The translations under genes were made by a program, and so were the position numbers. From positions 1 through 42,471 of the forward strand of contig CAIYPD010000038.1 in the NCBI GenBank assembly GCA_903928075.1: a DNA stretch of 42,471 bases. The letters run 5' to 3'. Below the pieces are notes generated by a model, which made no database searches, was not told where the DNA came from, and worked only from the letters and a program-made list of their open reading frames with translations. This DNA comes from Candidatus Firestoneibacteriota bacterium (GTDB taxonomy: Bacteria; Oederibacteriota; D2-FULL-39-29). Below, piece after piece: positions 16,483 to 42,183 of this stretch (within the stretch, counting starts at the first letter, position 1; each line of letters opens with the position of its first letter).

Positions 16483-17404
16483 ATGAATATTTTTAAAATA
16501 CCGGCTTTTGTTTTTCTTGCGGCTTTTCTTTGTTTTTCCACAGCAAAGGGGTACGGCAAAGAGGAAGTCAAGACGGCCGCGCCGATCTATGTAGGGGGCT
16601 TACTCCGTCGACCATGAGTTTGGAATAGTAACCGAAGAATGCATGGAAATATTAAAGACGAAAAAAATATTATACGGCAGCCGGTCCTGGGGACTGGTTA
16701 TCGGGTCGTATATCTCACGGCAAAAAGATTTTAAAACTAAACTTACCTGGGAGGGCACCGGCAATAAAAGGGTAAATTCTAAAGACATGGTTTTGACCGA
16801 CGATGTTTTTAAGGAGCCAAAGATACTGAATTTTATTTTCGACTCGGTGCCGAAAAGATGGCAATTTTTTGATGATTTTATAAGAAAGGAACCCTGGAGT
16901 TTTGGGAAGAAAATAGACGGCGGCCTACAAACCCTTTATTATATAGGGGACAAAGAAAGCATGGATGAGGCGTATTTTCCGATTCTTGACGGGCTTATCC
17001 GGGACTACCCGAATGTCAAGTTCGCAATCTCCACGCATAATGTGGGTGCCAGCGGAATGGATTTAAGAGGCAAAGAACAGCCGGAGGCCAGCGACTGGAA
17101 TGTTCGCGGCGGGGATTTTAGCGAAAAAGTCATTAAAAAATATTATGGCAAAATCGCCATTTTTGATATGCGCGATATTGTGTCTACCCGGCCGGACGGA
17201 ACCGTTTGTTCGTTTGAACATAAGGGGAAAACTTATAGAAAATTATGCCCGGAATACAATTCCAATAAAGACCTGATACATCCCAACACCCCGGAAGCGC
17301 AAGCCAGAATGGGGAAGGGCTTTTTGATCCTGCTTACCAAAATGTTTTGCGCGGACAAAATTCCAAGATCTCTGGTTACACCAAAGCCGGATATTTTAAA
17401 ATAA
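16483..17404 (+). pseudogene. Secreted SGNH-hydrolase-like gene with a single frameshift
   Basis: An ATG at 16483 after GAGGAGG opens a signal peptide (MNIFKIPAFVFLAAFLCFST) and reads to VGG at 16591-16599, then stops at 16615. The next reading frame continues without a gap as AYSVDHEFGIVTEECMEILK and runs to the TAA at 17402-17404. Removing one G from the GGGGG run at 16594-16598 joins the two into a 306-residue protein. ILYGSRSWG near the start and DLIHPN near the end resemble SGNH block I and the DxxH block V. The frameshift could be a true mutation, an assembly error in a homopolymer, or less likely programmed slippage. The downstream part alone has no signal peptide. Confidence 0.7.
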
Positions 17405-17410
17405 TTATAA

Positions 17411-17998
17411 ATGCGGCTTAAGGAAAAACTTATTCTCTGGTATTTCGGAGCCAAATTGAAAGTTTTTCTTGCCTTAGCAGGGGCAATATTTATTTTGTCA
17501 TTTTCTGACGCAAGAGCGCTTCAAGACGAGAGTGCTTTTTTTGGCTACGATAAATTTCTACATTTTACTGCCGGGTACCTGCTATCGGACGCTGCTTTTA
17601 CCATTCAGAAAAATAATAATGCGCTTCTTCCACTACTTCTCCCAACCGCAATAGGCACCGGAAAAGAAATAGTAGACAGTGTTTTTGACTGGAAAGACCT
17701 TGCCTGTACAGGGCTTGGTGCGGCAGTAAGAGTTTCTGTTTCCGGCGTAGAAGAGCTTCACTTCGGCAGTCTTACCCTGGAACACGCTAAGCTCGTTGAT
17801 TTTGCTGCCGGTTATATGGCTGCCGAGCTGGTATTTATAATCCAAAAAAACGATGAGATACTTCTGCCTGTTTTAATTCCTGTTTTTGCATCTGCGGGGA
17901 AAGAACTTGTAGACGGCTATTTTGACTGGAAGGATTTTGGTTATGTTTCATTTGGTGCAGTGGTAAGGTCTCTCCTGCGGGCAAGTTTTAAATTTTAA
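17411..17998 (+). CDS. Internally duplicated small membrane protein (YfiM/DUF2279-like)
   Basis: A 195-residue protein made of two copies of one unit. Residues about 46-109 (YDKFLHFTAGYLLSDAAF .. GTGKEIVDSVFDWKDLACT) and about 125-189 (HAKLVDFAAGYMAAELVF .. SAGKELVDGYFDWKDFGYV) align throughout. Shared positions are K, F.AGY, QKN, LLP, GKE(I/L)VD, FDWKD and GA.VR. The first copy has His51 where the second has Asp130. An N-terminal hydrophobic segment (17-32) precedes the repeats. The GKE..D...DWKD pattern recalls YfiM/DUF2279-type envelope proteins, but this is tentative. It starts 6 bp after the SGNH-like gene with no clear ribosome binding site, suggesting coupling. Confidence 0.6.
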   Translation: MRLKEKLILWYFGAKLKVFLALAGAIFILSFSDARALQDESAFFGYDKFLHFTAGYLLSDAAFTIQKNNNALLPLLLPTAIGTGKEIVDSVFDWKDLACTGLGAAVRVSVSGVEELHFGSLTLEHAKLVDFAAGYMAAELVFIIQKNDEILLPVLIPVFASAGKELVDGYFDWKDFGYVSFGAVVRSLLRASFKF

Positions 17999-20226: not shown

Positions 20227-21684
20227 ATGAAGAAGATTTTAATTATGATCGTAATTTTCGCTGGTTTTTGGTCCGAAGGTTTTGCTTATGATTCAAAAAC
20301 TCCGGAAAAAGTACTTATAGTCGTGAATAGTAATTCCACGGCTTCAAGTGATGTTGGAAGGTATTATCAGTCAAAAAGAGGTGTTCCTGAAACAAATTTT
20401 TTGCAGATAACCTGCACTACAACCGAGACTTGCACCGCAGTCGAATATGAAACGAACATAAGAGACCAGGTAAAAAATTATCTGGAGACTTCCGGGCTAA
20501 AATCCAAGATTTTGTATATTGTAATGTGCTATGGTATTCCTGTCAAGTTTGATTCTCTGGTAACAAGCGGTTATTCCTATCCGGGTGATACCTACAGGAG
20601 TGTGGATTCATTTCTAACGGATCCTTTTACAGCCCGGCCGGTATATCGTTCCATCGGAAGAACCAATCCCTGCAGAAATATGGATATCGTTAGAACTGAC
20701 AATACTTTCAATAATAACGGGGCGCCTTACTATTTTGTAACAAGAATTGACGGGCCAACTTCTGATATTGCCAAAGGTCTGGTAGACAAAGCAATGCTCG
20801 CGGAAAAATCTCTTATTCCGCCTCCACCAACTTATACAGGATATGTGGATGGGAACAATACCATCCAGGCGGAGGATGGCGGCGGATATAATTCAACCAA
20901 TAACGCGATACTCCGCTGTTATGATGAAATGCAAGCCGCAGGATGGAACTCCGTTAAAGATACGCATCCTGAGAGATTCGGGAATGCTACCACAGGCGTG
21001 ACACATTGTAAAAAAGCCATCTGGTATAGCGGCTGGTATGTCGGGACCTATGAAGATGTTTTTGACTGGCAGACCGGGGCAATCGGCTTTCATTTGTATT
21101 CCTGGACCGCGGCCTCGATAAGGACCGGGAACAGCTGGGTAACCGGAATGCTAAATCATGGCATAACCGGTACGGCCGGCACGGTTGCGGAACCTTTTAC
21201 CTGGGGATATATGATGTTCGATGTTTTTTATAACAGGTTTTTATCCACCACCAAAAAATTTAATTTTGCGGATGCCTGTTATGCCTCAACGGCAATGAAC
21301 CCCTCATATTCATCGGACTGGATGATGACCTTTGTCGGCGATCCCCTCTATACTATTTATGCCGGGGGAGCCTCGAAAAGCGGCAGCAAAGATATCAATC
21401 CCTTTGATATTGTGGTGCCGTATCCTAATCCCTATACTCCTTTGTCCGGCGTAAACGGGACTTTTAAAGTAAGAAATCTGCCGGGCAACTCGGTTTTTAG
21501 TATTTTTGATATTTCCGGACAATTGCTCAGGACTTTAAAGGAGGAAGACTTCGGGAATATTGGTTTTATTAATTGGGACGGGAGAGACAGTGATGGCAAT
21601 TATTTGCCCAATGGCATTTATTTATACACGCTTACGGATGTAGTCGGACATAAAAAAGCAGGAAAGATAGCGTATAAAAAATGA
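20227..21684 (+). CDS. Secreted TIGR03790-type protein with C-terminal FlgD-like Ig domain
   Basis: A 485-residue protein with a signal peptide (MKKILIMIVIFAGFWSEGFA). VLIVVNSNSTASSDVGRYYQ at about 29-48 followed by SKRGVPETNFLQI matches the start of TIGR03790, a family of unknown function in environmental bacteria including PVC members. Residues from about 391 (VVPYPNPYTPLSG .. VFSIFDISGQLLRTL .. WDGRDSDGNYLPNGIYLYTL) form a FlgD-like immunoglobulin domain, the type used as C-terminal sorting or attachment domains. GGAGGG precedes the ATG. It is most likely an exported surface protein; the central region is unassigned. The 118-bp gap that follows has no clear terminator. Confidence 0.75.
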   Translation: MKKILIMIVIFAGFWSEGFAYDSKTPEKVLIVVNSNSTASSDVGRYYQSKRGVPETNFLQITCTTTETCTAVEYETNIRDQVKNYLETSGLKSKILYIVMCYGIPVKFDSLVTSGYSYPGDTYRSVDSFLTDPFTARPVYRSIGRTNPCRNMDIVRTDNTFNNNGAPYYFVTRIDGPTSDIAKGLVDKAMLAEKSLIPPPPTYTGYVDGNNTIQAEDGGGYNSTNNAILRCYDEMQAAGWNSVKDTHPERFGNATTGVTHCKKAIWYSGWYVGTYEDVFDWQTGAIGFHLYSWTAASIRTGNSWVTGMLNHGITGTAGTVAEPFTWGYMMFDVFYNRFLSTTKKFNFADACYASTAMNPSYSSDWMMTFVGDPLYTIYAGGASKSGSKDINPFDIVVPYPNPYTPLSGVNGTFKVRNLPGNSVFSIFDISGQLLRTLKEEDFGNIGFINWDGRDSDGNYLPNGIYLYTLTDVVGHKKAGKIAYKK

Positions 21685-21802: not shown

Positions 21803-23449
21803 ATGAAAAGGCATAAATTCTTTTATTTTTTTTCACGGTGTGCTGGTTTGGCATTGATCGGAACCTTTTGTTCCCAGTTCTCTGCCGCTGAAATAAAACT
21901 TCCGGCAATTTTCGGAGATCATATGGTGCTTCAAAGCGGAGCCGCAACAGTTTTTTGGGGAACCGCGGGGGCCAATGAGGAAATCACAGTAACCGCCGGC
22001 TTGGTAACCGGCAAAGCAAAAGCCGGGGATGATGGCAAATGGTTGGTGAAATTAACCGGCTTAAAAGCGTCAGAAAAGCCTATTGAGGCGACAGTCTCCG
22101 GAGTCTCCGGAAAATTGGTTTTCAAAGATGTTCTCATAGGTGATGTGTGGGTATGCAGCGGCCAATCGAATATGGCTTTACGGGCGAGTGAGACAATAGA
22201 CGGAAAAGAAGCGGCAACCTCGGCAAAATACCCTTCCGTAAGATTTTTTAATGTCCCTCAGCTGCCCTCCCTGAAACCGCTTGATGATTGCAAAGGTAAA
22301 TGGGAATTATGCACGCCCGAAACGGCGGCCCGTTTTTCGGCAGTCGGGTTTTTCTTTGCAAAAAATATTCTTGAAACACAAAAGATCCCGCTTGGTATGA
22401 TAGGTTCTCATTCGGGAGGCACTCCGGCTCAGGCCTGGACCAGCCTTGACGCGCTGTCTTCTGATCCTGAATTAAAAAATGGATTTGTTGATCTGGACAA
22501 GGTGCTGGGTAATCTCGATGCCGTCCGCGCTGAACACGAAAAATGGATGAAGGAATGCGGAATGGAATACAAGGAGAGCCTGAAAAAATGGTTCGCTGAC
22601 AGCTGGGCCGCCCAGCAGAAAAAGACCCCTGTACCTCCGCGTCCCAAACAACCTGCTAAACCCGAGCCTCTCGATCCTGACGGTTCCACCTCTTTCCCGA
22701 CGGTACTTTTTAACGGTATGATCCATCCGCTGATACCTTTCGGTATCAAGGGAGTCGTATGGTATCAGGGGGAATCAAATGCCGGAAAACCCGGGCTTTA
22801 CCGGAAACTTTTTCCGTTGATGATAAAAGACTGGCGCAGTCATTGGGGCCAGGGAGATTTTCCCTTTCTTTTCGTGCAGCTGCCGAATTACGGCAAGCGC
22901 CAGGCCGAACCGGTGCTCCAGGACGGCTGGTCCTTTGTGCGGGAATCGCAGATGCTGGGGCTTAAGTCCGCAGCTAATACGGGGATGGCAGTGACTGTTG
23001 ATATCGGCTATGGGGACAATCTACATCCGCCTACCAAGGCCGGCGTCGGTTACCGGCTGGCTCTTGCCGCAAGACATATCGCCTACAAAGAAGATCTGAT
23101 TTTTTCCGGTCCGCTCTATGACTCGCATATGATCGCGGGAAATAAGATTACCGTAAAGTTCAGTAATACCGGCGCCGGCCTTAAGATTGCAAAAGTTCCC
23201 TATCCTTCAAGCAATAAAGATGCCCCGACAGATGAACTCAAAGGTTTTGCTGTCTCTGGCGCAGATAGCAAACTTTTTTGGGCAAAAGCCAGAATAGAGG
23301 GAAAGGACTCCGTAACAGTTTGGAGTGAAAAGATAGCAGAGCCGAAACAAGTCTATTATGGCTGGGGCTCTGATCCTGAAGTTAATTTATACAACAGCGC
23401 CGATCTACCGGCTTCGCCGTTTCGCACAGAAACCACTCTGCCTAAATAA
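21803..23449 (+). CDS. Secreted sialate O-acetylesterase-like (SASA) protein, copy 2
   Basis: A 548-residue paralogue of the protein at 11491. A signal peptide ends near ..CSQFSAA (about 28-29), followed by the N-terminal strand IKLPAIFGDHMVLQSGAATV. GQSNM has the nucleophile S122. VVWYQGESNAG is the second block, with Tyr where copy 1 has His. The catalytic D405xxH408 (DNLHPPTKAGVGYRLALAA) is canonical, unlike copy 1. A proline- and lysine-rich linker (KKTPVPPRPKQPAKPEPLDP) sits in the middle. AAAGGAGG precedes the ATG. It probably removes acetyl esters from an extracellular glycan, with a specificity different from copy 1. Confidence 0.87.
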   Translation: MKRHKFFYFFSRCAGLALIGTFCSQFSAAEIKLPAIFGDHMVLQSGAATVFWGTAGANEEITVTAGLVTGKAKAGDDGKWLVKLTGLKASEKPIEATVSGVSGKLVFKDVLIGDVWVCSGQSNMALRASETIDGKEAATSAKYPSVRFFNVPQLPSLKPLDDCKGKWELCTPETAARFSAVGFFFAKNILETQKIPLGMIGSHSGGTPAQAWTSLDALSSDPELKNGFVDLDKVLGNLDAVRAEHEKWMKECGMEYKESLKKWFADSWAAQQKKTPVPPRPKQPAKPEPLDPDGSTSFPTVLFNGMIHPLIPFGIKGVVWYQGESNAGKPGLYRKLFPLMIKDWRSHWGQGDFPFLFVQLPNYGKRQAEPVLQDGWSFVRESQMLGLKSAANTGMAVTVDIGYGDNLHPPTKAGVGYRLALAARHIAYKEDLIFSGPLYDSHMIAGNKITVKFSNTGAGLKIAKVPYPSSNKDAPTDELKGFAVSGADSKLFWAKARIEGKDSVTVWSEKIAEPKQVYYGWGSDPEVNLYNSADLPASPFRTETTLPK

Positions 23450-23882: not shown

Positions 23883-24662
23883 ATGAAAATAGAGCACGAT
23901 TTACATATACATACTTACTTATCGAGTTGCTGTGTTGAAAAAGAATTGCAGACACCGAAGAATATTATCTCCCTGGCCGAGAAGATGGGAATGAAAACTA
24001 TTGGATTTGCCGACCATCTTTGGATGAGTCCTTCTATTCCCGCAAACGACTGGTATAAACCGCAAGATGAAAATCAGATAACAAGGTTAAAACAAAATCT
24101 TTCAACGATTAAAACAGGCGTGCGCGTGCTTGTAGGCTGTGAAGCGGATACTATTGGCCCCGGGAAGTTTAGCATAACTAAAGAATTTGCAAAAACATTG
24201 GATTATGTGCTTTTGTCGTGCAGTCATATTCACCTGGATAATTTTGACCAACCCAAGAGTCTGGCGCCGCGGGATATGGTCGAGCATCTGGTTAAAATGT
24301 TTCTCTCGGGAGTGGAGAGCGGCATTCCGACGGCAATTGCTCATCCATTCGCGCTATTTGGCCCCTTGCATGGGCGGTCTGACGGGTTAATCAGCACGCT
24401 GTCTGATACTGAGTTATTTGATATGTTCAGCGTGGCTGAAAAAAATAAAGTAGCTATTGAAATAAACGCGGCAGCGGTTGCTCTTAGAAGTGAGCCGGTA
24501 AGACTTATAACAAATGCAAAGAAAGCAGGCTGTAAATTTACCTTTGGCAGTGATGCTCATGGTCCGGCGGGACAACGGGCGCTTTTGAATCTTGAGCCGT
24601 TTCTAAACAAGACAGGCGTAACCGAAGACGATATTTTACCTTTAGCAATAGGGGGTAAGTAA
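23883..24662 (+). CDS. PHP-domain phosphoesterase (histidinol-phosphatase-like)
   Basis: A 259-residue cytoplasmic PHP protein. All metal-site motifs are visible: DLHIH (H8, H10), ADH (D44, H45), GCEAD (E87), SHIH (H115, H117), AHP (H154) and GSDAH (D224, H226). This is the full trinuclear set, so it should be active on a phosphate ester; the substrate is unknown. There is no good ribosome binding site directly upstream. A 7-codon frame starting at 23863 (MKMTAKQ) ends in the ATGA overlap with this start, so coupled re-initiation is possible. It stands alone between two gaps. Confidence 0.85.
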   Translation: MKIEHDLHIHTYLSSCCVEKELQTPKNIISLAEKMGMKTIGFADHLWMSPSIPANDWYKPQDENQITRLKQNLSTIKTGVRVLVGCEADTIGPGKFSITKEFAKTLDYVLLSCSHIHLDNFDQPKSLAPRDMVEHLVKMFLSGVESGIPTAIAHPFALFGPLHGRSDGLISTLSDTELFDMFSVAEKNKVAIEINAAAVALRSEPVRLITNAKKAGCKFTFGSDAHGPAGQRALLNLEPFLNKTGVTEDDILPLAIGGK

Positions 24663-28801: not shown

Positions 28802-30811
28802 GTGATAAAATCAATATTTAAATTGGCCGCTGCGTTTTGGATAATGAGCGTTTTATTCACAGCGGGGACCTCTGCGGAAGTGCAGGTCTGGACGAGCGAT
28901 ATTATTACCAATGATATGGCGGGAACTGCTGTGAAAGAATTGAAAGCCGTTACCCTTGTGGGTGCCAAAAACGGCACATTTTCCGGAAAGATCGTGGTCG
29001 AATCCTCCGCTATTCTTAAAGGAGTAAAGGCCTCCGCAGGCGTTTTGACCGGCAAAGATGGTATCATTCCTGCGCAAAATATTCAAATCCGCTATGGGAA
29101 ATTCTGGGATAAACATGGAAATAAAGAACCCAGAGGCCCGGACATTCTTATGGAAACCTCACCGGAGGCAGCGCCCGTAAAGGACCGCAATGCAATTATC
29201 CCCGTATGGGTAACCGTAAAGGTACCCAAAGATGCGAAGGCGGGCATTTACTCCGGGGAGATAACAGTGCAACCCGCCGGCTCCGCTTCTGTCAAAGTTA
29301 AACTAAATATTTCGGTAGAGGATTGGACCCTGCCGGATTCTCAGGATTACCGTATATTTTCGGATTTTGTCCAGTCTCCGGATTCTTTGGCCCTGGAATA
29401 TAATGTTCCGCTCTGGTCCGAGAAACACTGGAAATTGATAGACCGCTCTTTTAAACTTTTAAGTCCGACCGGGGGGCGCGTGGTATATGTTCCGCTTATC
29501 TGCCGGACTAACTTCGGCAATGAGCAGACGATGGTCCGCTGGATTAAAAATGGTGAAAACAAATATGAGTATGATTACACCATTCTTGACCGGTATCTGG
29601 ACTCAGCCGAGAAGAATTTGGGTAAACCAAAACAAATAATATTTTTGGTCTGGGATATTTGTATGTCGGTAAAATCTCTGGAAAGAGGTTTATGGGGGAA
29701 TGATAAAGGACAGGGCACAAGAGAGGGCCGGACGGAACTCCTCGGGAAGGGTCCCCGGGTAACGCTTTTGAATCCGGTAACAAGTGAGACCGGCGTCCTC
29801 ACCTTACCCCGCTATGAAGATCCGGCGAGCAAGGCCTTGTGGCAGCCGATGTTCGCAGAAGTGCTAAAAAGAATGAGAAAACGCGAGCTTGAAAAAAACA
29901 TGATGCTTGGCATAATGCCGGATCTCTGGCCCAACAAAGAAGAAGTGGCTTTCTGGAAAGAAATTTCCGGGGGCAGCGCGTGGGCGATACACGGCCATGC
30001 CGGCTCGGCAAAAGATGTAATGATAGGTAATAAAGGCTTGTACAAGATCGCCGATATTGGTTATGCGGCCTTCGTCTATAACCTTGTGTATAATGTTAAC
30101 CCGGATAAAGGACGGTTGTATGGCTGGCAAAATCCGGCGTTACTTTCCAGTTATCAGCGGTTTGAAATGAATGCGGCCTCAACTTCCTATATCCGCCAGC
30201 TTCTGGCTTTTAATATTACCGGCGGCCAGCAGCGGGGCCTGGGCAGACTGTCGGCTGAATTCTGGTATGCAGTAAAAAACAAGAAGGGAGAACGCAGCGG
30301 AGCGGTCCACTCGCGTTATCCGGAAAACAACTGGCGCAACCTGGATATCGCTGACTGGTTCCTGGCGCCGGGCCCTGACGGGGCCTTGGCCACTGCGCGG
30401 CTTGAGTCTTTTGTAGAAGGCACACAGGTTTGCGAGGCGAGAATATTTTTAGAAGATGCCTTACTTACCTCAGGAAAAAAGCTCAAGCTGGGTGCTGATT
30501 TAGCCAAGCGCTGCCAGGAGGGCCTCGACGAGCATCACCATGCTATGTGGAAGACGGTCTGGAGTAACGATGAAGACCTGAAACTTGTAGGAAAGACGGA
30601 TGGCAACTGCCGTAATCCGCCGGAAGCTCTCTGGTTTGCCCTGGAAAAAGCCGGAAAGAAACTGCCGGAATACTGGTCAGGACCTGCCCGCACCATGCGC
30701 GCGGAAGAAGCAAGGAAAGGCCAGGAGTTATTTGTAGTCGGCTGGCAGGAGCGCGAAAAGAAACTCTTTGCCCTCGCGGGTGAGGTTGCAGCTAAACTCG
30801 AAACTAAGTAA
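28802..30811 (+). CDS. Secreted DUF4091/GH123-like protein, array copy 1 (short form)
   Basis: A 669-residue protein starting at GTG, with AAAGGA upstream and a signal peptide (..SVLFTAGTSA|EVQVW). Residues 25-180 are the N-terminal beta-sandwich (VWTSD, NGTFSGKIVVES, VPVWVTVKVPKDAKAGIYSG type strands). The central part looks like a (beta/alpha)8 domain with PLICRTNFGNEQTMVRW, IIFLVWDI, GIMPDLWPNKEE and AIHGHAG. WFLAPGPDGALATARLE near 520-535 followed by EGTQVCEARIFL is the PF13320/DUF4091-type C-terminal motif. GH123 is the characterised relative (beta-N-acetylgalactosaminidase); activity here is unproven. It lacks the lysine-rich C-terminal module found in the next three copies. Confidence 0.78.
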   Translation: MIKSIFKLAAAFWIMSVLFTAGTSAEVQVWTSDIITNDMAGTAVKELKAVTLVGAKNGTFSGKIVVESSAILKGVKASAGVLTGKDGIIPAQNIQIRYGKFWDKHGNKEPRGPDILMETSPEAAPVKDRNAIIPVWVTVKVPKDAKAGIYSGEITVQPAGSASVKVKLNISVEDWTLPDSQDYRIFSDFVQSPDSLALEYNVPLWSEKHWKLIDRSFKLLSPTGGRVVYVPLICRTNFGNEQTMVRWIKNGENKYEYDYTILDRYLDSAEKNLGKPKQIIFLVWDICMSVKSLERGLWGNDKGQGTREGRTELLGKGPRVTLLNPVTSETGVLTLPRYEDPASKALWQPMFAEVLKRMRKRELEKNMMLGIMPDLWPNKEEVAFWKEISGGSAWAIHGHAGSAKDVMIGNKGLYKIADIGYAAFVYNLVYNVNPDKGRLYGWQNPALLSSYQRFEMNAASTSYIRQLLAFNITGGQQRGLGRLSAEFWYAVKNKKGERSGAVHSRYPENNWRNLDIADWFLAPGPDGALATARLESFVEGTQVCEARIFLEDALLTSGKKLKLGADLAKRCQEGLDEHHHAMWKTVWSNDEDLKLVGKTDGNCRNPPEALWFALEKAGKKLPEYWSGPARTMRAEEARKGQELFVVGWQEREKKLFALAGEVAAKLETK

Positions 30812-30860
30812 GGGTTTTTTTTCAAAATATATATAAAAATCCCCGGAAAGGAGAGGTTCA

Positions 30861-33164
30861 ATGAGTAAATTAATTAGGTTGCTGGCAGTGTTGGTTACAC
30901 TAGGCATTGTTTTTCTTTCCCAAACTCGGGCAGCTGATGTAAAAATCTGGACCAGCGATGTAGCTTCTGATGAGTTGTTACCTAAGGCGGTTAAAGAACT
31001 GAAACCTATTCTTTTAGTCGGCGCCAGAAACGGCAGCTTTTCGGGTAAACTCGTAGTCGAGTCAAACGGTATAATAAAGGGAGTAAAGGCCTCCGCAGGC
31101 GCGCTTAGCGGGAGCGAAGGTATCATCCCCGCTTCAAATGTACAAATTCGTTACGCCACCTGGTTTCCGAAAAAATGGGGCTGGCCTACCAGGCCGGATG
31201 TTCTTTCGGAAACGCCGCAGGAGGTGAGTCCCGACGGATACAATCCGACTGTACTGCCCGTGTGGGTAACAGTTAAGGTCCCCAAAGATGCAAAAACAGG
31301 GGTATACACCGGAGAAGTAACTGTGCAAGCCGAGGGTGCTTCGCCTGTTAGGGTTAAGCTTAATCTTTCTGTTGAAGACTGGACTATACCCGACTCCCAG
31401 GATTTTCGTACCTGGATGGATTTTGTCCAATCCCCCGATACGCTGGCAGTGGAATATAATGTCCCGCTCTGGTCTGAAAAGCACTGGAAACTGATAGACC
31501 GGTCTTTTCAGTTCTTAAGTCCCACAGGCGGCCGCACGCTGTATGTGCCGCTTATCTGCCGGACCAACTTCGGCAATGAGCAGTCGATGGTCCGCTGGAT
31601 AAAAAAAGGCGAAAATAAATATGAATATGATTATAGTGTTATGGAAAAATATCTGGACTCTGCTGAGAAGAATCTGGGCAAGCCGAAATTAGTTATTTTT
31701 TTGGTCTGGGATATCTGTATGTCCGCGAAGTCGCTGGAAAGAGGGTTATGGTCTAAGGATAATGCTACCGGCAAGGGCCGCGCAGAACTTTTGGGCAAGG
31801 GCCCCCGCGTTACGGTTCTTAACCCGGCAACGAAAGAACCGGGCGTTCTGATACTGCCCCGCTATGAAGACCCGGCGAGCAAAGCCCTCTGGCAGCCGAT
31901 GTTTACGGAAGTAAAAAAACTTATGGAGAAGCGCGGGCTGGAAAAGACTATGATGCTCGGAATTATGCCGGACCTCTGGCCGAGCAAGGAAGAAGTTACT
32001 TTCTGGAAGGATGTATCGGGAGGCCTGGCCTGGGCGATTCACGGGCACGCTGGCGCGGCAAAAGATGTCATGATAGGAAATAAAGGGTTGTATAAGATCT
32101 CCGATATAGGCTACGCAGCCTATGTGTATAACCTGATGTATAATGTTAACCCTGATAAGGGCCGGCTCTACGGCTGGCAAAATCCGGCACTTTTAACCTG
32201 TTATCTGCGGCTCGGGGAATTAAACCGGTCGCCGGGTTCCTACACCCGCGCTCTTCCGGCCTTCTATATTACGGGGGGACAACGCGGAGGGGGAAGAATG
32301 GGTGCGGATTTCTGGCCTGCGATGAAGAACAATAAGGGGGAGCGTGCGGGAGCGGTCTATGCCCGTTATCCTGAAAACAATTGGAGAAACCTTGATATCT
32401 CAGACTGGTTCCTGGCGCCCGGCCCTGATGGCGCTATATCTACTGTCCGACTTGAGTACCTAAATGAAGGGATGCAGGAATGTGAAGCAAGGATTTTTCT
32501 TGAAGACGCGCTCTTAGACAGCGGAAAAAAAGCAAAACTCGGGGCGGATCTGGCTAAGCGCTGTCAGGAAGCGCTCGACGAGCATCACCGTGCGATGTGG
32601 AAAACCGTTTGGAACAATGATGAAGATCTGAAGCTTATTGGGCAGGTAGGCGACGCCCGAAACCCTGTTGAGGCAATAATCACAGCCCTGATTAAGGCCG
32701 GCAAAAAAATTAAGTATGGAGGCGAAGCCACTATTCCCGTTCAGGTCGAAGAGGCGAAGAAGGGCCAGGAGTGGTTTGCCCTCGGCTGGCAGGATAGAGA
32801 AAGGAAGCTCTTTGCTCTTGCGGGCGAAGTCGAGGTAAAAGTATCCGGAAGAAAAGCCTCGGTCGGTTCTGATACCGCCGAGCAGACGGCTACTTTAGTA
32901 AGCGAAAATACGGGCATAGCAAAAGAAAAAGTTTTTGAACTCTTGAAAACCAAAGGCATAAAAACGGAGGATGTTATAACTGTCTGTGCCGCGGCGGAGA
33001 TAACAAAAGCGGAGCCGGAAGAGCTTTATAAGAAAAGAAAGAAGGTAAATACTAACTTTGATTTTTTAAGCGACCTGAAACTGGAGAAAGAAGCAAAAGC
33101 GGCTCTGGATGCTCTCATAAAAAAGCTTAAAGCCGCTCTGGAAGAAGGAAAAAAGAAAAAATAA
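30861..33164 (+). CDS. Secreted DUF4091/GH123-like protein, array copy 2
   Basis: A 767-residue paralogue of copy 1. The signal peptide ends at ..FLSQTRA. The beta-sandwich, barrel and DUF4091 motifs are conserved (CRTNFGNEQSMVRW, VWDICMSAKSLERGLW, AIHGHAGAAKDVMIG, WFLAPGPDGAISTVRLE). It is the most divergent in the loop after the first domain (WFPKKWGWPTRPDVLS where the others have KFWD.HG..EP) and in the region around 600-650. From about 673 it adds a helical lysine-rich module (NTGIAKEKVFELLKTKG .. CAAAEITKAEPEELYKKRKK .. FDFLSDLKLEKEA). AAAGGAGAGG precedes the ATG. It is probably secreted or surface-held and glycan-active. Confidence 0.78.
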   Translation: MSKLIRLLAVLVTLGIVFLSQTRAADVKIWTSDVASDELLPKAVKELKPILLVGARNGSFSGKLVVESNGIIKGVKASAGALSGSEGIIPASNVQIRYATWFPKKWGWPTRPDVLSETPQEVSPDGYNPTVLPVWVTVKVPKDAKTGVYTGEVTVQAEGASPVRVKLNLSVEDWTIPDSQDFRTWMDFVQSPDTLAVEYNVPLWSEKHWKLIDRSFQFLSPTGGRTLYVPLICRTNFGNEQSMVRWIKKGENKYEYDYSVMEKYLDSAEKNLGKPKLVIFLVWDICMSAKSLERGLWSKDNATGKGRAELLGKGPRVTVLNPATKEPGVLILPRYEDPASKALWQPMFTEVKKLMEKRGLEKTMMLGIMPDLWPSKEEVTFWKDVSGGLAWAIHGHAGAAKDVMIGNKGLYKISDIGYAAYVYNLMYNVNPDKGRLYGWQNPALLTCYLRLGELNRSPGSYTRALPAFYITGGQRGGGRMGADFWPAMKNNKGERAGAVYARYPENNWRNLDISDWFLAPGPDGAISTVRLEYLNEGMQECEARIFLEDALLDSGKKAKLGADLAKRCQEALDEHHRAMWKTVWNNDEDLKLIGQVGDARNPVEAIITALIKAGKKIKYGGEATIPVQVEEAKKGQEWFALGWQDRERKLFALAGEVEVKVSGRKASVGSDTAEQTATLVSENTGIAKEKVFELLKTKGIKTEDVITVCAAAEITKAEPEELYKKRKKVNTNFDFLSDLKLEKEAKAALDALIKKLKAALEEGKKKK

Positions 33165-33192
33165 TATTTTTAAAAGAAAACAGCTCGAACAT

Positions 33193-33221
33193 TTGAAGTA
33201 TTTTCAGATAAAATATATACT
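33193..33221 (+). promoter_or_regulatory. Predicted promoter before array copy 3
   Basis: TTGAAG (33193-33198) and TATACT (33216-33221) are 17 bp apart. The expected start near 33228 would give a 14-base leader containing GGAGG (33231-33235) before the ATG at 33242. This would let copies 3 and 4 be expressed separately from the upstream operon. Confidence 0.5.
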
Positions 33222-33241
33222 ATTTAACCGGGAGGTATTAA

Positions 33242-35542
33242 ATGACGAGGGCAATATGTAAGATGGTGGTGGCTTTAGTAATACTGGGGGCTTTTCTGCC
33301 GGGTAAGTTAGCGGCGCAGGTCAAGTTCTGGACTAGTGATGTCATATCGAATGAACTATCTCCTAAAGCGGTTAAAGAATTGACACCGGTTACCCTGGTT
33401 GGCGCCAGAAACGGCAGTTTCTCGGGAAAAATAGTTATTGAATCCAACGGCGCGGTTAAGGGAATAAAGGCCTCTGCGGGCGCTTTGACCGGAAAAGACG
33501 GCACTATTCCGGCGCAAAATATACAAATTCGCTACGGAAAATTTTGGGATGTACATGGCGGCAGAGAACCTGCAGGCGCCGATATTCTTTTGGAAACTCC
33601 CCAGGATGCGTCTCCCGTAAAGGGCCGGACGGTGGTGCCTGTATGGGTAACTGTTACTGTGCCAAAAGATGCGAGCGCGGGAATCTATACCGGCGAGGTA
33701 AATGTCCAGGCGGAAGGTACTTCGGTCAGAGTTAAAATTAATATGGAGGTCGAGGACTGGACGATGCCCGACTCGCAGGATTACCGCACCTTTACGGATT
33801 TTGAGCAGTCTCCTGATTCTTTGGCTGTCGAATATGAAGTTCCTCTATGGTCTGAAAAGCACTGGAAACTTATAGACAAATCTTTCAAGCTCTTAAGCGG
33901 TACCGGCAGCCGTGTGGTTTATGTTCCGCTTATCTGCCGGACTAATTTTGGCAATGAGCAGACGATGGTGCGCTGGGTTAAAAAGGGTACGAACAGTTAT
34001 AATTATGACTATACCATTCTTGATAGATATTTGGACTCAGCCGAGAAGAACCTGGGCAAGCCCAAACAGGTTATTTTTTTGGTCTGGGATATATGTATGT
34101 CTGCAAAGTCACTGGAAAGAGGGTTGTGGGATAAGAATAACGCCACAGGAAAAAACCGCCAGGACCTGCTTGGAAAAGGAGCCCGTGTGACGGCTTTGGA
34201 CCCGGTGACAAATAGCACGAGCACAATAACCCTTCCCCGCTATGAAGACCCGGCGAGTAAGTCCCTGTGGCAGCCTATGTTTACTGAAGTGATGAAAAGG
34301 ATGAAAAAGCGCGACATAGAAAAGACCGCGATGCTGGGAATAATGCCTGACCTTTGGCCCAGTAAAGAGGAAGTGACTTTCTGGAAGGATATTGCGGGAG
34401 ATATGGGCTGGGCTATTCATGGTCACGCCGGCTCCGCCCAGGATGTCTTAATAGGGAAAAAAGGACTATATAAAATTTCAGATATTGCTTATGCCGCTTT
34501 CGTTTATGATCTGATATACAATGTAAGTACGGAAAAAGGACGTTTGTATGGCTGGAAGGGTCCGGCGCTGATTTCGGCTTACGATAGATTTGTAATGAAT
34601 GCGTATTCCTGCCTGGGTGTACGGGAGGCCCCGGCCTTTAATATTACAGGAGGACAGCGCGGGCTTGGGCGGTTGTCAGCAGAATTTTGGTATGCAGTGA
34701 AAGATAAGAAAGGCGGGCGCGGCGGTCCGGTATTTTCGCGGTATCCGGAAAACAACTGGCGCAATCTGGATATAGGCGATTGGTTTCTTGCCCCCGGGCC
34801 GGAGAGCACATTAGCTACGGCGCGTTTGGAGTCGCTTAAAGAAGGGGTACAGGTTTGCGAAGCGAGAATTTTTCTGGAAGACGCACTGCTGGACGGAACA
34901 AAGAAATCCAAACTTGGTTCGGATCTGGCCAAGCGGAGCCAGGACGCACTCGATGAGCAGCACCGTGCGATGTGGAAGACCGCCTGGAACACCGACGAAG
35001 ACCGTAAACTTGTGGGAGTCGCTCCGGGGAGTCGAAATCCTCAAGAGAATATTTGGGGGATGCTGGTAAAGGCCGGAAAAAAGTTGCCCGGATTCTGGGA
35101 TGGTTCGGCCCGTGCTTTGAGAGCAGAGGAATCCCAAAAAGGCGAGGAGTGGTTTGCTCTCGGCTGGCAGGAGCGGGAAAGGAAACTCTTTGCTCTTGCA
35201 GGCGAAGCAGATGCAAAGCTTACCGGCGGTGCCAGCAGTAAAACTTCCGATTCTTCGGGGCCGGTTGCCGAAGCGGTAAGTAAAAATACAAGTATTCCCA
35301 AGGAAAAAGTCCTTGAACTGTTAAGAAACAAGGGGACCAACAAGGACGAGGTCATCTCCGTCTGCGCGGCGGCGGAAATCACAAAAGGTGATCCGGATGA
35401 GCTTTACAAGAAGAGAAAGAAAGTAAATACTAACTTTGATTTTTTAAGCGACCTGAAATTAGATAAAGAAGGAAAAGCCAAATTGGAAGCTCTCATCAAA
35501 ACAATAAAGGGCTCGATAGAGGAAAAGAAGCTTAAGAAGTAA
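33242..35542 (+). CDS. Secreted DUF4091/GH123-like protein, array copy 3
   Basis: A 766-residue paralogue with a signal peptide ending ..FLPGKLAA|QVKFW. The N-terminal sandwich, CRTNFGNEQTMVRW, VWDICMSAKSLERGLW, AIHGHAGSAQDVLIG and WFLAPGPESTLATARLE are all kept. The GPDG of the DUF4091 motif reads GPES here. FTDFEQSPDSLAVEYEVPLW differs from the other copies by Glu for Val at the first position. The C-terminal module (from about 661: GGASSKTSDSSGPVAEAVSK onward) is nearly identical to that of copy 4, at nucleotide level too, suggesting recent duplication or gene conversion. It has its own predicted promoter and GGAGG. Confidence 0.78.
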   Translation: MTRAICKMVVALVILGAFLPGKLAAQVKFWTSDVISNELSPKAVKELTPVTLVGARNGSFSGKIVIESNGAVKGIKASAGALTGKDGTIPAQNIQIRYGKFWDVHGGREPAGADILLETPQDASPVKGRTVVPVWVTVTVPKDASAGIYTGEVNVQAEGTSVRVKINMEVEDWTMPDSQDYRTFTDFEQSPDSLAVEYEVPLWSEKHWKLIDKSFKLLSGTGSRVVYVPLICRTNFGNEQTMVRWVKKGTNSYNYDYTILDRYLDSAEKNLGKPKQVIFLVWDICMSAKSLERGLWDKNNATGKNRQDLLGKGARVTALDPVTNSTSTITLPRYEDPASKSLWQPMFTEVMKRMKKRDIEKTAMLGIMPDLWPSKEEVTFWKDIAGDMGWAIHGHAGSAQDVLIGKKGLYKISDIAYAAFVYDLIYNVSTEKGRLYGWKGPALISAYDRFVMNAYSCLGVREAPAFNITGGQRGLGRLSAEFWYAVKDKKGGRGGPVFSRYPENNWRNLDIGDWFLAPGPESTLATARLESLKEGVQVCEARIFLEDALLDGTKKSKLGSDLAKRSQDALDEQHRAMWKTAWNTDEDRKLVGVAPGSRNPQENIWGMLVKAGKKLPGFWDGSARALRAEESQKGEEWFALGWQERERKLFALAGEADAKLTGGASSKTSDSSGPVAEAVSKNTSIPKEKVLELLRNKGTNKDEVISVCAAAEITKGDPDELYKKRKKVNTNFDFLSDLKLDKEGKAKLEALIKTIKGSIEEKKLKK

Positions 35543-35565
35543 TAATTTTACCCGGAGGTTGTTTA

Positions 35566-37881
35566 ATGAAGAAGGGAATATGTAATTTGGCGGCAGCTCT
35601 GGCAATACTGGCGGCTTTTCTGCCGGGGAAGTTAACGGCGGAGGTCAAGATCTGGACCAGCGATGTTGTATCTGATGAGCTAGCTTTGAAAGCTGTTAAG
35701 GAAATTAAGCCGGTTACCCTGGTTGGAGCCAGAAACGGTAGTTTCTCCGGTAAAATAGTAGTTGAGTCTTCCGGCAGTATAAAAAGCGTGAAGGCCTCCG
35801 CGGGTGCTTTGACCGGAAAAGACGGCACCATTCCGGCGAAAAATGTGCAAATCCGCTACGGAAAATTTTGGGATAGACACGGCGGTCGGGAACCGGCAGG
35901 CGCCGATATTCTAACGGAAACTTTCGAAGAGGCGGCTCCGGTAAAGGGCCGCGCAGTAGTCCCCGTATGGGTCTCTGTTATTGTGCCAAAAGATGCGAGT
36001 GCGGGTACTTACACCGGCGAAGTAAATGTTCAGGCGGACGGCGCCTCGGCAAGAGTTAAACTTAGCCTTGAGGTTTCGGATTGGACGATGCCCGATTCGC
36101 AGGATTACCGCACCTTTACGGACTTTGTGCAGTCTCCTGATTCTTTGGCCGTTGAATACAATGTTCCGCTCTGGTCTGAAAAGCACTGGAAACTTATTGA
36201 CAGGTCTTTCCAGCTCTTAAGCGGCACCGGCAGCCGGGTTGTTTATATTCCTCTTATCTGCCGGACTAATTTTGGCAATGAGCAGACGATGGTGCGCTGG
36301 GTTAAAAAGGGTACGAACAGTTATGAATATGACTATACCATTCTCGACAAATACCTGGACTCGGCCGAGAAGAACCTGGGCAAACCCAAACAGGTTATTT
36401 TTTTAGTCTGGGATATCAGCATGTCAACCAAGTCCCTGTCCGCAGGTATTAACATATATGTGGCGGATAAAGGTAAAGCCGTCACAGAAAGCCGCCAGCA
36501 ATTATTGGGAAAAGGAGCCCGTGTTACGGCCTTTGACCCCGTTACAAATAATGCAAGTACACTGACCCTGCCCCGCTATGAAGACCCGGCGAGTAAGTCC
36601 CTTTGGCAGCCGATGTTTACAGAAGTTCTGAAAAGGATGAAAAAGCGTAATCTTGAAAATAACCTGATGCTTGGTATTATGCCCGACATTTGGCCCAGCA
36701 AAGAGGAAGTGACTTTTTGGAAGGATATCGCGGGGGGGCTGTCCTGGGCTATTCACGGCCATGCAGGCGCTGCCAATGATGTTATGATAGGAAACAAGGG
36801 ATTATACAAGATTGCAGATATCGGCTATGCCGCCTTTGTATATAATCTGGTTTACAATGTTAATCCGGACAAAGGAAGGCTTTATGGCTGGAAGATTCCG
36901 GCTCTGCTTTCGGCTTACGATAGATTTGTAATGAATCAGACTTCCTGCTGTGGTATACGGGAGGCTCCGGCCTTTAATATTACCGGAGGGCAGAGAGGAT
37001 TGGGCCGTTTATCAGCAGAATTCTGGTATGCTGTGAAAGATAAAAGCGGCGCGCGCGGAGGTTCTGTATTTATGCGTTACCCGGAAAATAACTGGCGCAA
37101 CCTGGACATAGGTGATTGGTTTCTTGCTCCCGGTCCGGATGGCGCATTGTCTACGGCGCGGCTGGAGTCTCTTAAAGAGGGGGTTCAGGTTTGCGAAGCG
37201 AGGATATTTCTGGAGGACGCGTTGCTGGATGCAAACAAGAAGGCAAAACTTGGTTCGGATCTGGCCAAAAGAAGCCAGGATGCTCTCGATGAGCAGCACC
37301 GTGCAATGTGGAAGAGTGTTTGGAGCAGCGACGAAGATCTTAAAATGGTTGGCAAGACAGAAGGCAATTGTCGTAATCCGCCGGAAGCGCTGTGGTTTGG
37401 CCTGGTAAAAGCCGGTAAAAAGATGCCGGAATACTGGGCAGGCTCTTCAAACACTTTGCGTTCCGATGAGGCACGAAAAGGCGGAGAGATTTTTGCCGTC
37501 GGGTGGCAGGAGCGGGAAAAAAAGCTCTTTGATCTTGCAGGCGAAGCAGATGCAAAGCTTACCGGCGGGGCCAGCAGTAAAACTTCCGATTCTTCGGGGC
37601 CGGTAGCCGAAGCGGTAAGCAAAAATACGGGTATTCCCAAGGAAAAAGTTCTTGAACTTTTAAGAAACAAGGGAACCAACAAGGATGAGATCATCTTCGT
37701 CTGCGCGGCGGCGGAAATCACAAAAGGGGATCCTGATGAGCTTTATAAGAAGAGAAAAAAAGTAAATACTAACTTTGATTTTTTAAGCGACCTGAAATTG
37801 GACAAAGAAGCAAAAGCCAAATTGGACGCTCTTGTTAAAACAATAAAAGGCTCGATAGAAGAGAAGAAGATTAAGAAGTAA
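35566..37881 (+). CDS. Secreted DUF4091/GH123-like protein, array copy 4
   Basis: A 771-residue paralogue, 23 bp after copy 3, with GGAGG and a signal peptide ending ..FLPGKLTA. The N-terminus and the C-terminal module are closest to copy 3. The stretch IADIGYAAFVYNLVYNVNPD and the region around 610-660 (GNCRNPPEALWFGLVKAGKK) are closest to copy 1, so the gene looks mosaic. The barrel segment VWDISMSTKSLSAGINIYVA replaces the VWDICMS.KSLERGLW of the other three, which may alter the active-site rim. Like the others it is probably extracellular and glycan-directed. The next gene, a glycosyltransferase, starts 27 bp downstream. Confidence 0.78.
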   Translation: MKKGICNLAAALAILAAFLPGKLTAEVKIWTSDVVSDELALKAVKEIKPVTLVGARNGSFSGKIVVESSGSIKSVKASAGALTGKDGTIPAKNVQIRYGKFWDRHGGREPAGADILTETFEEAAPVKGRAVVPVWVSVIVPKDASAGTYTGEVNVQADGASARVKLSLEVSDWTMPDSQDYRTFTDFVQSPDSLAVEYNVPLWSEKHWKLIDRSFQLLSGTGSRVVYIPLICRTNFGNEQTMVRWVKKGTNSYEYDYTILDKYLDSAEKNLGKPKQVIFLVWDISMSTKSLSAGINIYVADKGKAVTESRQQLLGKGARVTAFDPVTNNASTLTLPRYEDPASKSLWQPMFTEVLKRMKKRNLENNLMLGIMPDIWPSKEEVTFWKDIAGGLSWAIHGHAGAANDVMIGNKGLYKIADIGYAAFVYNLVYNVNPDKGRLYGWKIPALLSAYDRFVMNQTSCCGIREAPAFNITGGQRGLGRLSAEFWYAVKDKSGARGGSVFMRYPENNWRNLDIGDWFLAPGPDGALSTARLESLKEGVQVCEARIFLEDALLDANKKAKLGSDLAKRSQDALDEQHRAMWKSVWSSDEDLKMVGKTEGNCRNPPEALWFGLVKAGKKMPEYWAGSSNTLRSDEARKGGEIFAVGWQEREKKLFDLAGEADAKLTGGASSKTSDSSGPVAEAVSKNTGIPKEKVLELLRNKGTNKDEIIFVCAAAEITKGDPDELYKKRKKVNTNFDFLSDLKLDKEAKAKLDALVKTIKGSIEEKKIKK

Positions 37882-37908: not shown

Positions 37909-38757
37909 GTGAGTGACAATTCAGAAGTAAAAGTAGGTCTGGTTCTACCGGTAATCACGAGCAGATATATTTTGAAGCTTGTCGCTAAAGTTCTTAAAAC
38001 TGTACAGCTTAAAAACTATCATATGTGCATAGTAAACAACGGGCAGCCGGCAGTTGCGGAGTATTTGGCTAAATATAAATGGCCTGCCAATGTAAGCATA
38101 TTGAATCTTCCTGAAAACAGATGTTTTGCCGGCTCGAATAATGCGGGCTGGAAGTATCTGCTGGAAAAATTCCCAACAGTCAAATATTTGGGTTCCTTAA
38201 GTGATGACACGATTCCGCGGGCCGGCTGGCTGGATAGTTTGGTCGAGGCTCTGGAAAAATATCCAAAAACCGGCTTAGCGGTGCCGGTTATTGAAGAGGA
38301 GTACGGAATTTTCCATTTAAGAGGAGGAAGGTTCTTTAAGAGGCTTAAAGGCCTGGGTATATTTAAAACGAAGGATCTTTGTGTTTATGAATATGATAAT
38401 TCCGTAACTATAAAATGCGTGGGGTTTGAGGCAGTCAAAGACACTTTTGTCCCGGTCATACGGGGCGCTTGTTTCCTGACGGACGCCCGGATTCTCAAGA
38501 AAATAGATTTCTTTGATGAAAGATTTAAAAACAGCTGTGAAGATGTGGATTTGTGCTTGAAAATGCTGACCGCCGGTTATAGGATAGTTTTAGCTAAAAA
38601 TTCGAGGGTTTTCCACCTGGGAGCCATGTCCGTTGGTTTAAAGAAGGCAGGTACTAATTATAACGCATCCCACAAGCTTTTTGATGAAAAATGGGGGAAG
38701 GATATTAGCAAATATAACAATATTGACAAAGAGGGTTTCTTAAAGCCGGGTGAATAA
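37909..38757 (+). CDS. Family 2 glycosyltransferase (GT-A)
   Basis: A 282-residue cytoplasmic GT2 protein starting at GTG, with GGAG 7 bp upstream. The N-terminal nucleotide-binding strand (GLVLPVITSRYILKLVAKVL), LPENRCFAGSNNAGW at 68-81 and SLSDDT at 96-101 (D99-D100 as the DxD-type metal site) are clear. CEDVDLCLKM at 210-219 supplies the acidic ED acceptor-side motif, with H236 shortly after. The layout resembles rhamnosyltransferase-like O-antigen enzymes. It has no transmembrane segments. Placement directly after the DUF4091 array suggests it builds a surface glycan related to the array's substrate, or glycosylates those exported proteins; both are inference. Confidence 0.85.
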   Translation: MSDNSEVKVGLVLPVITSRYILKLVAKVLKTVQLKNYHMCIVNNGQPAVAEYLAKYKWPANVSILNLPENRCFAGSNNAGWKYLLEKFPTVKYLGSLSDDTIPRAGWLDSLVEALEKYPKTGLAVPVIEEEYGIFHLRGGRFFKRLKGLGIFKTKDLCVYEYDNSVTIKCVGFEAVKDTFVPVIRGACFLTDARILKKIDFFDERFKNSCEDVDLCLKMLTAGYRIVLAKNSRVFHLGAMSVGLKKAGTNYNASHKLFDEKWGKDISKYNNIDKEGFLKPGE

Positions 38758-41154: not shown

Positions 41155-42183
41155 ATGAATTCATCCGAACTGGTAAAAAGGGCAATTCATTTTCAAAACC
41201 CTGATAGGATTCCTATCCGGCATATGCTTATGGATGCGGCTTTATACGAGCATGGCCAAAAACTGCCGGACCTGTATAAGAAAGTTAAAGGCGATTTCGG
41301 AGATCCCGCGCCGGTAAAAATACCAAAACCTGCGCCGAAGCATATTTCACCGGACGGAAACTACCGCAGGATAGAAAAAGACTGCTGGGGCGTGGAATGG
41401 GAATATATTAAATTTGGAATAGCCGGCCATCCTCTTAGCCGGCCGTTGGATAATATCGGTAATTTAAAGACCTACAAGCCCCCCGAGCCACCGAGATCAA
41501 GCGGAAAAGCTTTTGCTGATAAAAAAACAGTCGTGAAAAAAAACAAAGAAACAGGTTACTGTCTTGAGGGCTGGATAAACCTCTTCGAACTAATGCATGC
41601 CGTCAGGAATTTTGAGAATGTCTTGATGGATGTATTAGATAATACCCGGGAGATAAACCGTCTTGCCGATATGATAGTCGAATATCAGGAAGGCATGATT
41701 CAATATTTTATTGCGCTTGGCGTGGATGGCATAATGCTGGCGGATGACTGGGGCAGTCAAAATTCGCTCCTTATAGGCAGGGAGACCTGGCTTGAGTTTT
41801 TTAAGCCCAGGTATGAAAAATTAATAAAGCCGGTTAAGAGCGCGGGCATAGATGTGTTCTTTCATTCTTGCGGGCATATTCTCTCGTTACTTGATGATTT
41901 AGCGGATTTGGGCGTTGATGTAATCTGGCCGCAGTACGCTTCAAATGACCCTGAATTACTTGCGAAAAAAGCAAGAGAGCGGAAAATGTGCGTGGAACTT
42001 CATATGGATCGCCAGACGCTTATGACTTTTGGTGTTCCCGAAGAAATCGATGCGGCTGTGAAAAAAGCACGGGGGATATTCGGAAATAATAACGGCGGCC
42101 TTATCTATCACGCAGAGATAGACAACGGATTTTCCTTTGAAAATATCAAAGCGCTGTTAAACGCGTTCAAAAAATACTCATAA
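41155..42183 (+). CDS. Uroporphyrinogen decarboxylase (URO-D)-like / corrinoid methyltransferase-type protein
   Basis: A 342-residue TIM-barrel protein of the URO-D superfamily. The start (LVKRAIHFQNPDRIPIR) is typical, with FQNPDRIP the usual substrate-side loop. ADDWGSQNSLLIG and FHSCGH (H237, C239, H241) fit the zinc-site region of MtaA/MtbA-type methyltransferases better than true HemE. True HemE-type residues are not evident, and heme genes are absent nearby, so heme synthesis is unlikely. Members next to sugar-catabolic and Fe-S genes are frequent in anaerobic PVC-type genomes with unknown substrates, possibly methylated compounds. GAGG lies before the ATG. Confidence 0.82.
   Translation: MNSSELVKRAIHFQNPDRIPIRHMLMDAALYEHGQKLPDLYKKVKGDFGDPAPVKIPKPAPKHISPDGNYRRIEKDCWGVEWEYIKFGIAGHPLSRPLDNIGNLKTYKPPEPPRSSGKAFADKKTVVKKNKETGYCLEGWINLFELMHAVRNFENVLMDVLDNTREINRLADMIVEYQEGMIQYFIALGVDGIMLADDWGSQNSLLIGRETWLEFFKPRYEKLIKPVKSAGIDVFFHSCGHILSLLDDLADLGVDVIWPQYASNDPELLAKKARERKMCVELHMDRQTLMTFGVPEEIDAAVKKARGIFGNNNGGLIYHAEIDNGFSFENIKALLNAFKKYS

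Follow-up and report, generated by a model that had tools for sequence, protein, structure and literature searches.

The window analysed here is a stretch of 42,471 nucleotides which makes up an entire contig of the 2.72 Mb genome of a Candidatus Firestonebacteria bacterium. It holds a tandem array of four paralogous genes (copies A to D), lying among the neighbours listed below, where the sister genome is that of a second species:

23883..24662, forward strand: PHP-domain protein (Pfam), first gene of the conserved neighbourhood, with a 70% identical counterpart in the same position of the sister genome
24795..26762, forward strand: FG-GAP repeat protein (Pfam) upstream of the array, with an 81% identical counterpart in the same position of the sister genome
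26784..27710, forward strand: secreted protein of the type I phosphodiesterase/alkaline phosphatase superfamily (PF01663), a neighbour kept in the sister genome
27845..28771, forward strand: second phosphodiesterase paralogue (PF01663), 30 bp before copy A
28802..30811, forward strand: copy A, 669 aa, GTG start; PDLWP, without the DE pair and without the C-terminal extension
30861..33164, forward strand: copy B, 767 aa; PDLWP, without the DE pair, with the C-terminal domain
33242..35542, forward strand: copy C, 766 aa; PDLWP, without the DE pair, with the C-terminal domain
35566..37881, forward strand: copy D, 771 aa, the copy modelled; PDIWP, without the DE pair, with the C-terminal domain
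37909..38757, forward strand: family 2 glycosyltransferase (PF00535), 27 bp after copy D

The open reading frames are exactly those of the first-pass annotation, which had described four head-to-tail paralogues of 669, 767, 766 and 771 residues on one strand, each with its own signal peptide and ribosome binding site. The copies are separated by 49 bp (A-B), 77 bp (B-C) and 23 bp (C-D), each begins with a hydrophobic N-terminus of the signal-peptide type (as judged by eye), and they are preceded by purine-rich Shine-Dalgarno-like stretches, which are, in the order listed, AGGAAA, AAAGGAGAGG, GGGAGG and CCGGAGG. The motifs CRTNFGNEQxMVRW, VWDI, AIHGHAG and WFLAPGP, also reported in that reading, occur in all four proteins. 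Since the copies share 67-81% pairwise protein identity, the array has arisen by duplication and not by chance. Frameshifts or a pseudogene status of the copies were considered and ruled out by the intact reading frames and the low dN/dS values. A search of NCBIfam returned no name for any of the four proteins.

The kinship with GH123 and DUF4091 proteins proposed from the sequence is borne out by both Pfam profiles and fold. When the profiles PF13320 and that of the GH123 N-terminal domain were searched, as had been suggested, all four copies passed the curated cut-offs, with matches to PF13320 at E 1e-17 to 1e-19 (64.7-68.6 bits, cut-off 23.1) and to PF22680 at E 2e-8 to 1e-10 (34.6-41.9 bits, cut-off 27). 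The PF13320 alignment is confined to the first half of the model (positions 2-159 of 324), and ends in the copies approximately where the DE motif would stand. An AlphaFold2 model of copy D, built with 91 family sequences, reached a pLDDT of 93.2 and a pTM of 0.84. The best match of this model in a Foldseek search against the PDB was BvGH123 (E 6e-29, TM 0.68 by target length), and the top 22 were all GH123-type beta-N-acetylgalactosaminidases/hexosaminidases (E 6e-29 to 4e-15), the first unrelated match appearing at E 2e-6 with a TM below 0.3. The entire GH123 fold is therefore present, beyond the half aligned by the Pfam model. A profile-profile comparison between GH123 and the branch to which the copies belong gave a probability of 99.8%, and model, profiles and Foldseek agree on the GH123-fold architecture, that is, an N-terminal beta-sandwich, a (beta/alpha)8 barrel and the DUF4091 region.

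In GH123 enzymes, two consecutive barrel residues, Asp and Glu (DE), stabilise the 2-acetamido group and act as acid/base, respectively; as described by Sumida et al. 2024 (PMC11087588), GH123-type mutants in the Asp have little or no activity, and those in the Glu show reduced activity. A consecutive DE at the catalytic site was found in none of the 132 branch members compared, including all four copies, and in three of the 132 a DE occurs farther downstream, past the conserved Pro. Within the same phylum, 14 of 14 PF13320 proteins from outside the branch keep the pair, all of them frame-checked open reading frames, one of which comes from the same family as the host genome. The local pattern at this site in the branch is [S/T/G/P/C/N]-D-x-x-P, in which the Asp is residue 374 of copy D, whose numbering is used throughout. 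In hhalign, in two MAFFT runs and in a profile alignment to NgaDssm, Asp374 is matched to the catalytic Glu, and the stabiliser Asp is matched to a small residue. A conflicting weak alignment to BvGH123 (6 bits; motif DERP) places Asp374 on the stabiliser Asp and not on the Glu, in which case the former position would be without an acid. Whether Asp374 replaces the Glu or the Asp is thus not certain from these alignments, which indicate a broken pair either way. The active site seems to differ on strand 8 as well: position 482 is Ile, Leu, Val or Met in 116 of 136 rows, the same column holds Trp in all ten DE-bearing proteins, and the Gly-x3-Trp spacing suggests that it corresponds to W431 of NgaLy, an active-site Trp. 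Gly478 on that strand (G427 of NgaLy) is kept in 127 of the 132 members. Around five further conserved residues of NgaLy (D95, W115, Y392, Y466 and R478), the alignment with the branch is of low certainty.

The first-pass annotation had made its assignment depend on a structural match to GH123 and on an Asp-Glu pair; the former is strong, and the latter is absent in all four copies. The copies are not GH123 enzymes as defined, and the N-acetylgalactosaminidase label of their GH123 relatives should not be transferred to them, because the DE pair is absent. That they are still beta-N-acetylgalactosaminidases, using a single carboxylate, is improbable. They do hold the complete GH123 fold and a curated Pfam match, and Glu-to-Asp mutants of GH123-type enzymes have been described to keep a reduced activity (PMC11087588), but in the favoured alignments the stabiliser Asp is replaced by Ser, Thr, Gly, Pro, Cys or Asn, and the invariant substrate Trp has been lost. 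As the residue handling the acetamido group is likely gone, GalNAc chemistry is disfavoured.

Other positions of the barrel have become fixed in the branch instead. The main ones are listed below with their codons in copy D (counts over the 132 members):

36412..36414, forward strand: Asp283, just after barrel strand 3; Asp or Glu in 101 of 132
36685..36687, forward strand: Asp374, after strand 4, at the DE site; Asp in 112 of 132, the next residue never being Glu
36760..36762, forward strand: His399, after barrel strand 5; 132 of 132
36922..36924, forward strand: Arg453, after barrel strand 7; 132 of 132

The model predicts Asp374, Asp/Glu283, His399 and Arg453 to lie at the C-termini of strands 4, 3, 5 and 7 of the barrel, respectively, the end which in GH123 bears the catalytic pair. 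The only residues invariant in every member are Tyr198, His207, His399 and Arg453, and Asp256 and Tyr263 are fixed or nearly so. His207 and Asp256 are also common among DE-bearing relatives, and their roles may be structural. This invariant set is an argument for a reading that we regard as unlikely, in which the copies carry out another glycan chemistry (e.g., beta-elimination or transglycosylation) and the carboxylates form a catalytic group with His399, Arg453 and Tyr198. Groups of His, Tyr and Arg are frequent in polysaccharide lyases, and a lyase-like gene adjoins other copies of the family. However, His207 is shared with several DE-bearing GH123 relatives, so that part of the fixed set is probably structural, and the significant Foldseek matches include no lyase.

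The two carboxylates are less constant, Asp374 being missing in 20 of the 132 members and Asp/Glu283 in about one quarter of them, and sub-clades exist which lack both and yet conserve His399 and Arg453. These sub-clades, together with the branch-wide disappearance of the GH123 catalytic pair and of the invariant substrate Trp, argue for the main rival explanation, doubtful in our view, according to which the copies are non-catalytic pseudoenzymes whose old active site has turned into a lectin-like pocket, acting as surface or released binders of different glycans; the large copy numbers would fit a recognition repertoire. Against it stands the finding that 96 of 132 members, spread over several phyla, retain both Asp374 and an acidic residue at 283, which would be needless for a mere scaffold. 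Co-variation of the two acids was discarded as evidence: their raw co-retention has an odds ratio of 18 in a Fisher test which ignores kinship, and the effect is gone with phylogenetically independent pairs. Because it is lost once relatedness is counted, a joint working of both residues is not supported.

The array represents a small part of a much larger family. The host genome contains 19 PF13320 matches, or 22 by the family profile (including partial genes at contig ends), and the sister genome 12 and 18, respectively. The host thus carries about 20 of these genes, scattered over many sites and contigs, and for this reason the proposal that a single array forms a dedicated system for one glycan is weakened, the array itself being real. 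When 84,980 species genomes were scanned, 69 loci were found, nearly all of them in Planctomycetota (Phycisphaerae, Brocadiaceae-named and others) and Firestonebacteria. Single planctomycete genomes gave 34 and at least 47-53 profile matches, counts which in the largest of these genomes include partial matches to the N-terminal sandwich only. The highest PF13320 count in one Planctomycetota genome is 59, of which a few are DE-bearing canonical proteins; this genome, of about 6 Mb, is that of the planctomycete RA.bin114 (G061), in which tandem runs of at least three PF13320 genes lie on single contigs (e.g., at loci L118 and L185). Duplication in the branch has been heavy and specific to individual lineages. 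In a FastTree phylogeny, the branch forms one clade apart from the DE-bearing proteins with a support of 99, in a tree which has some long outgroup branches and an untested root. No description of the expansion of this DE-less branch was found among the full-text papers covered that name DUF4091.

Two architectures exist in the family, a short form of ~670-800 aa, to which copies A-D belong, and a long form of ~900 aa with ~270 extra residues at the N-terminus. Over ~100 aa of this extra part, the family profile matched a putative GH78-type rhamnosidase, and a sequence search of the PDB with the N-terminal domain of one long relative alone gave no match. Copies B-D, but not copy A, end in an accessory domain of ~100 aa and six helices:

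32859..33161, forward strand: C-terminal all-helical accessory domain of copy B
35228..35539, forward strand: C-terminal all-helical accessory domain of copy C
37567..37878, forward strand: C-terminal all-helical accessory domain of copy D

Neither this domain nor the loss of the DE pair figured in the first-pass annotation. The domain recurs on short-form copies located elsewhere, as well as on small secreted proteins (~230 aa) whose front part is different; among 59 relatives, it was detected solely in the host's own order. A structure search with it found no significant relative, the best match having an E of 0.23, to designed proteins. A docking or anchoring part is our guess for its role. 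One of the small proteins, of 233 aa (L141:6878-7579), is secreted and joins a different front part to the same helical domain, and related genomes from the same order encode similar proteins of ~230 aa.

Three of the four copies have orthologues in the sister genome: that of copy B is 88% identical over 500 codons (dN/dS 0.06), that of copy C 94% identical (dN/dS 0.10) and that of copy D 90% identical (dN/dS 0.09), and a fourth orthologue pair, located elsewhere, has a dN/dS of 0.12. No orthologue of copy A was found in that genome. In its contig 20 (L059:4380-4650), the C-terminal helical domain stands alone directly after the phosphodiesterase gene, and is the scar of a lost paralogue. The history of the array is one of birth and death under purifying selection.

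Regarding the neighbourhood, Pfam agrees with the phosphatases, FG-GAP protein and glycosyltransferase named in the first reading, and the survey of related genomes which it recommended has shown that the order PHP - FG-GAP - phosphodiesterase - array is kept in the sister genome at 70-82% identity, the order of the copies being different. The glycosyltransferase at 37909..38757 is probably outside the system, because no counterpart was found on the contig that carries the array in the sister genome. Taken over the various copies, the neighbouring genes include those of polysaccharide deacetylases, acetylesterase-type SASA proteins, one alginate-lyase/heparinase-like protein and GH42/GH39-like proteins. 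The substrate of the array is not named by its neighbourhood. Two links drawn from it were dropped, one to demethylation, based on URO-D-type genes beside many copies, given that the genome holds 39 URO-D-family matches, and another to sulfated glycans, as three of six PF00884 matches are strong and three weak, two of the weak ones being the window phosphodiesterases.

Elsewhere in the window, positions 11491-13485 and 21803-23449 encode two SASA-type (sialic acid acetylesterase-like) proteins, one of which is 67% identical to a relative encoded close to the array of the sister genome. The protein encoded at 20227-21684 has a C-terminal FlgD_ig / CHU_C type IX secretion-like domain, which suggests a sorting system. 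An open reading frame of 877 aa (8027-10660) and a pair of 253 and 195 aa (16643-17998) match no Pfam family above the cut-off. URO-D-family (methyltransferase-like) genes are expanded in this 2.7 Mb genome, one of their matches lying at 41155-42183.

According to these data, the best explanation, to which we give a probability of about one half, is that the copies are secreted glycoside hydrolases with a rebuilt catalytic site, forming a separate branch of the GH123 fold. An action on carbohydrates is what the fold, the secretion, the selection and the glycan-processing neighbours point to. The absence of the pair is not enough to make the copies non-enzymes, because Asp374 stays and His399, Arg453 and Asp/Glu283 are nearly fixed; a catalytic role for these residues is proposed from their conservation. 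In the postulated mechanism, hydrolysis would proceed without the substrate-assisted catalysis on GalNAc, Asp374 would act as the acid in place of the GH123 Glu, Asp/Glu283 would provide the second carboxylate, and His399 and Arg453 would bind the substrate. The targets would be glycans without a 2-acetamido group, and the copies may differ in which linkages or side chains they are adapted to in complex polysaccharides. A broader proposal, possible but tentative, is that a large family of glycoside hydrolases with the GH123 fold has given up substrate-assisted catalysis for a conventional mechanism, its carboxylates having been relocated (Asp374 on strand 4 and Asp/Glu283 on strand 3), and has become a main polysaccharide-processing kit of these uncultured lineages, with ~20 genes in Firestonebacteria and up to 59 PF13320 matches in one planctomycete.

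If the branch is active, it would be an example of a substrate-assisted hexosaminidase fold converted to another mechanism, and if inactive, a group of secreted pseudoenzymes that has expanded greatly. In domain-based annotation these proteins appear as GH123, which implies N-acetylgalactosaminidases; because the branch lacks the defining pair, genomes of some Planctomycetota and of Firestonebacteria would each carry tens of misleadingly labelled genes.

Among known systems, the closest are the GH123 enzymes sensu stricto, BvGH123 (PDB 5L7R/5L7U/5L7V) and CpNga123 (5FQE-5FQH), which have the same whole fold and domain order and give the best Foldseek and the best profile match of the branch. 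In contrast to them, the branch lacks the consecutive Asp-Glu, is only ~16% identical over the fold, has Ile, Leu, Val or Met in place of the substrate Trp, and shows a new fixed His399 and Arg453. GH20 and clan GH-K comprise other substrate-assisted hexosaminidases, in which the catalytic acids lie where strand 4 of the barrel ends, and no GH-K family appeared among the significant Foldseek matches to the copy D model. The branch also shares the DUF4091 region, the barrel, the N-terminal sandwich and the strand-8 Gly with the GH123-related Groups 1-4, represented by NgaCa, NgaAt, NgaDssm and NgaP2/NgaLy (PDB 8K2F-8K2N; Sumida et al. 2024, PMC11087588). As described in that work, DE is present in 94% of 734 DUF4091 sequences and is kept by all the characterised members of Groups 1-4, whereas the branch is a separate clade without it. 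Compared with all these systems, the array is ordinary in kind, being an expansion of a known fold; what is unusual is the degree of this expansion, and the loss of the defining catalytic pair across a large branch which domain databases still label GH123.
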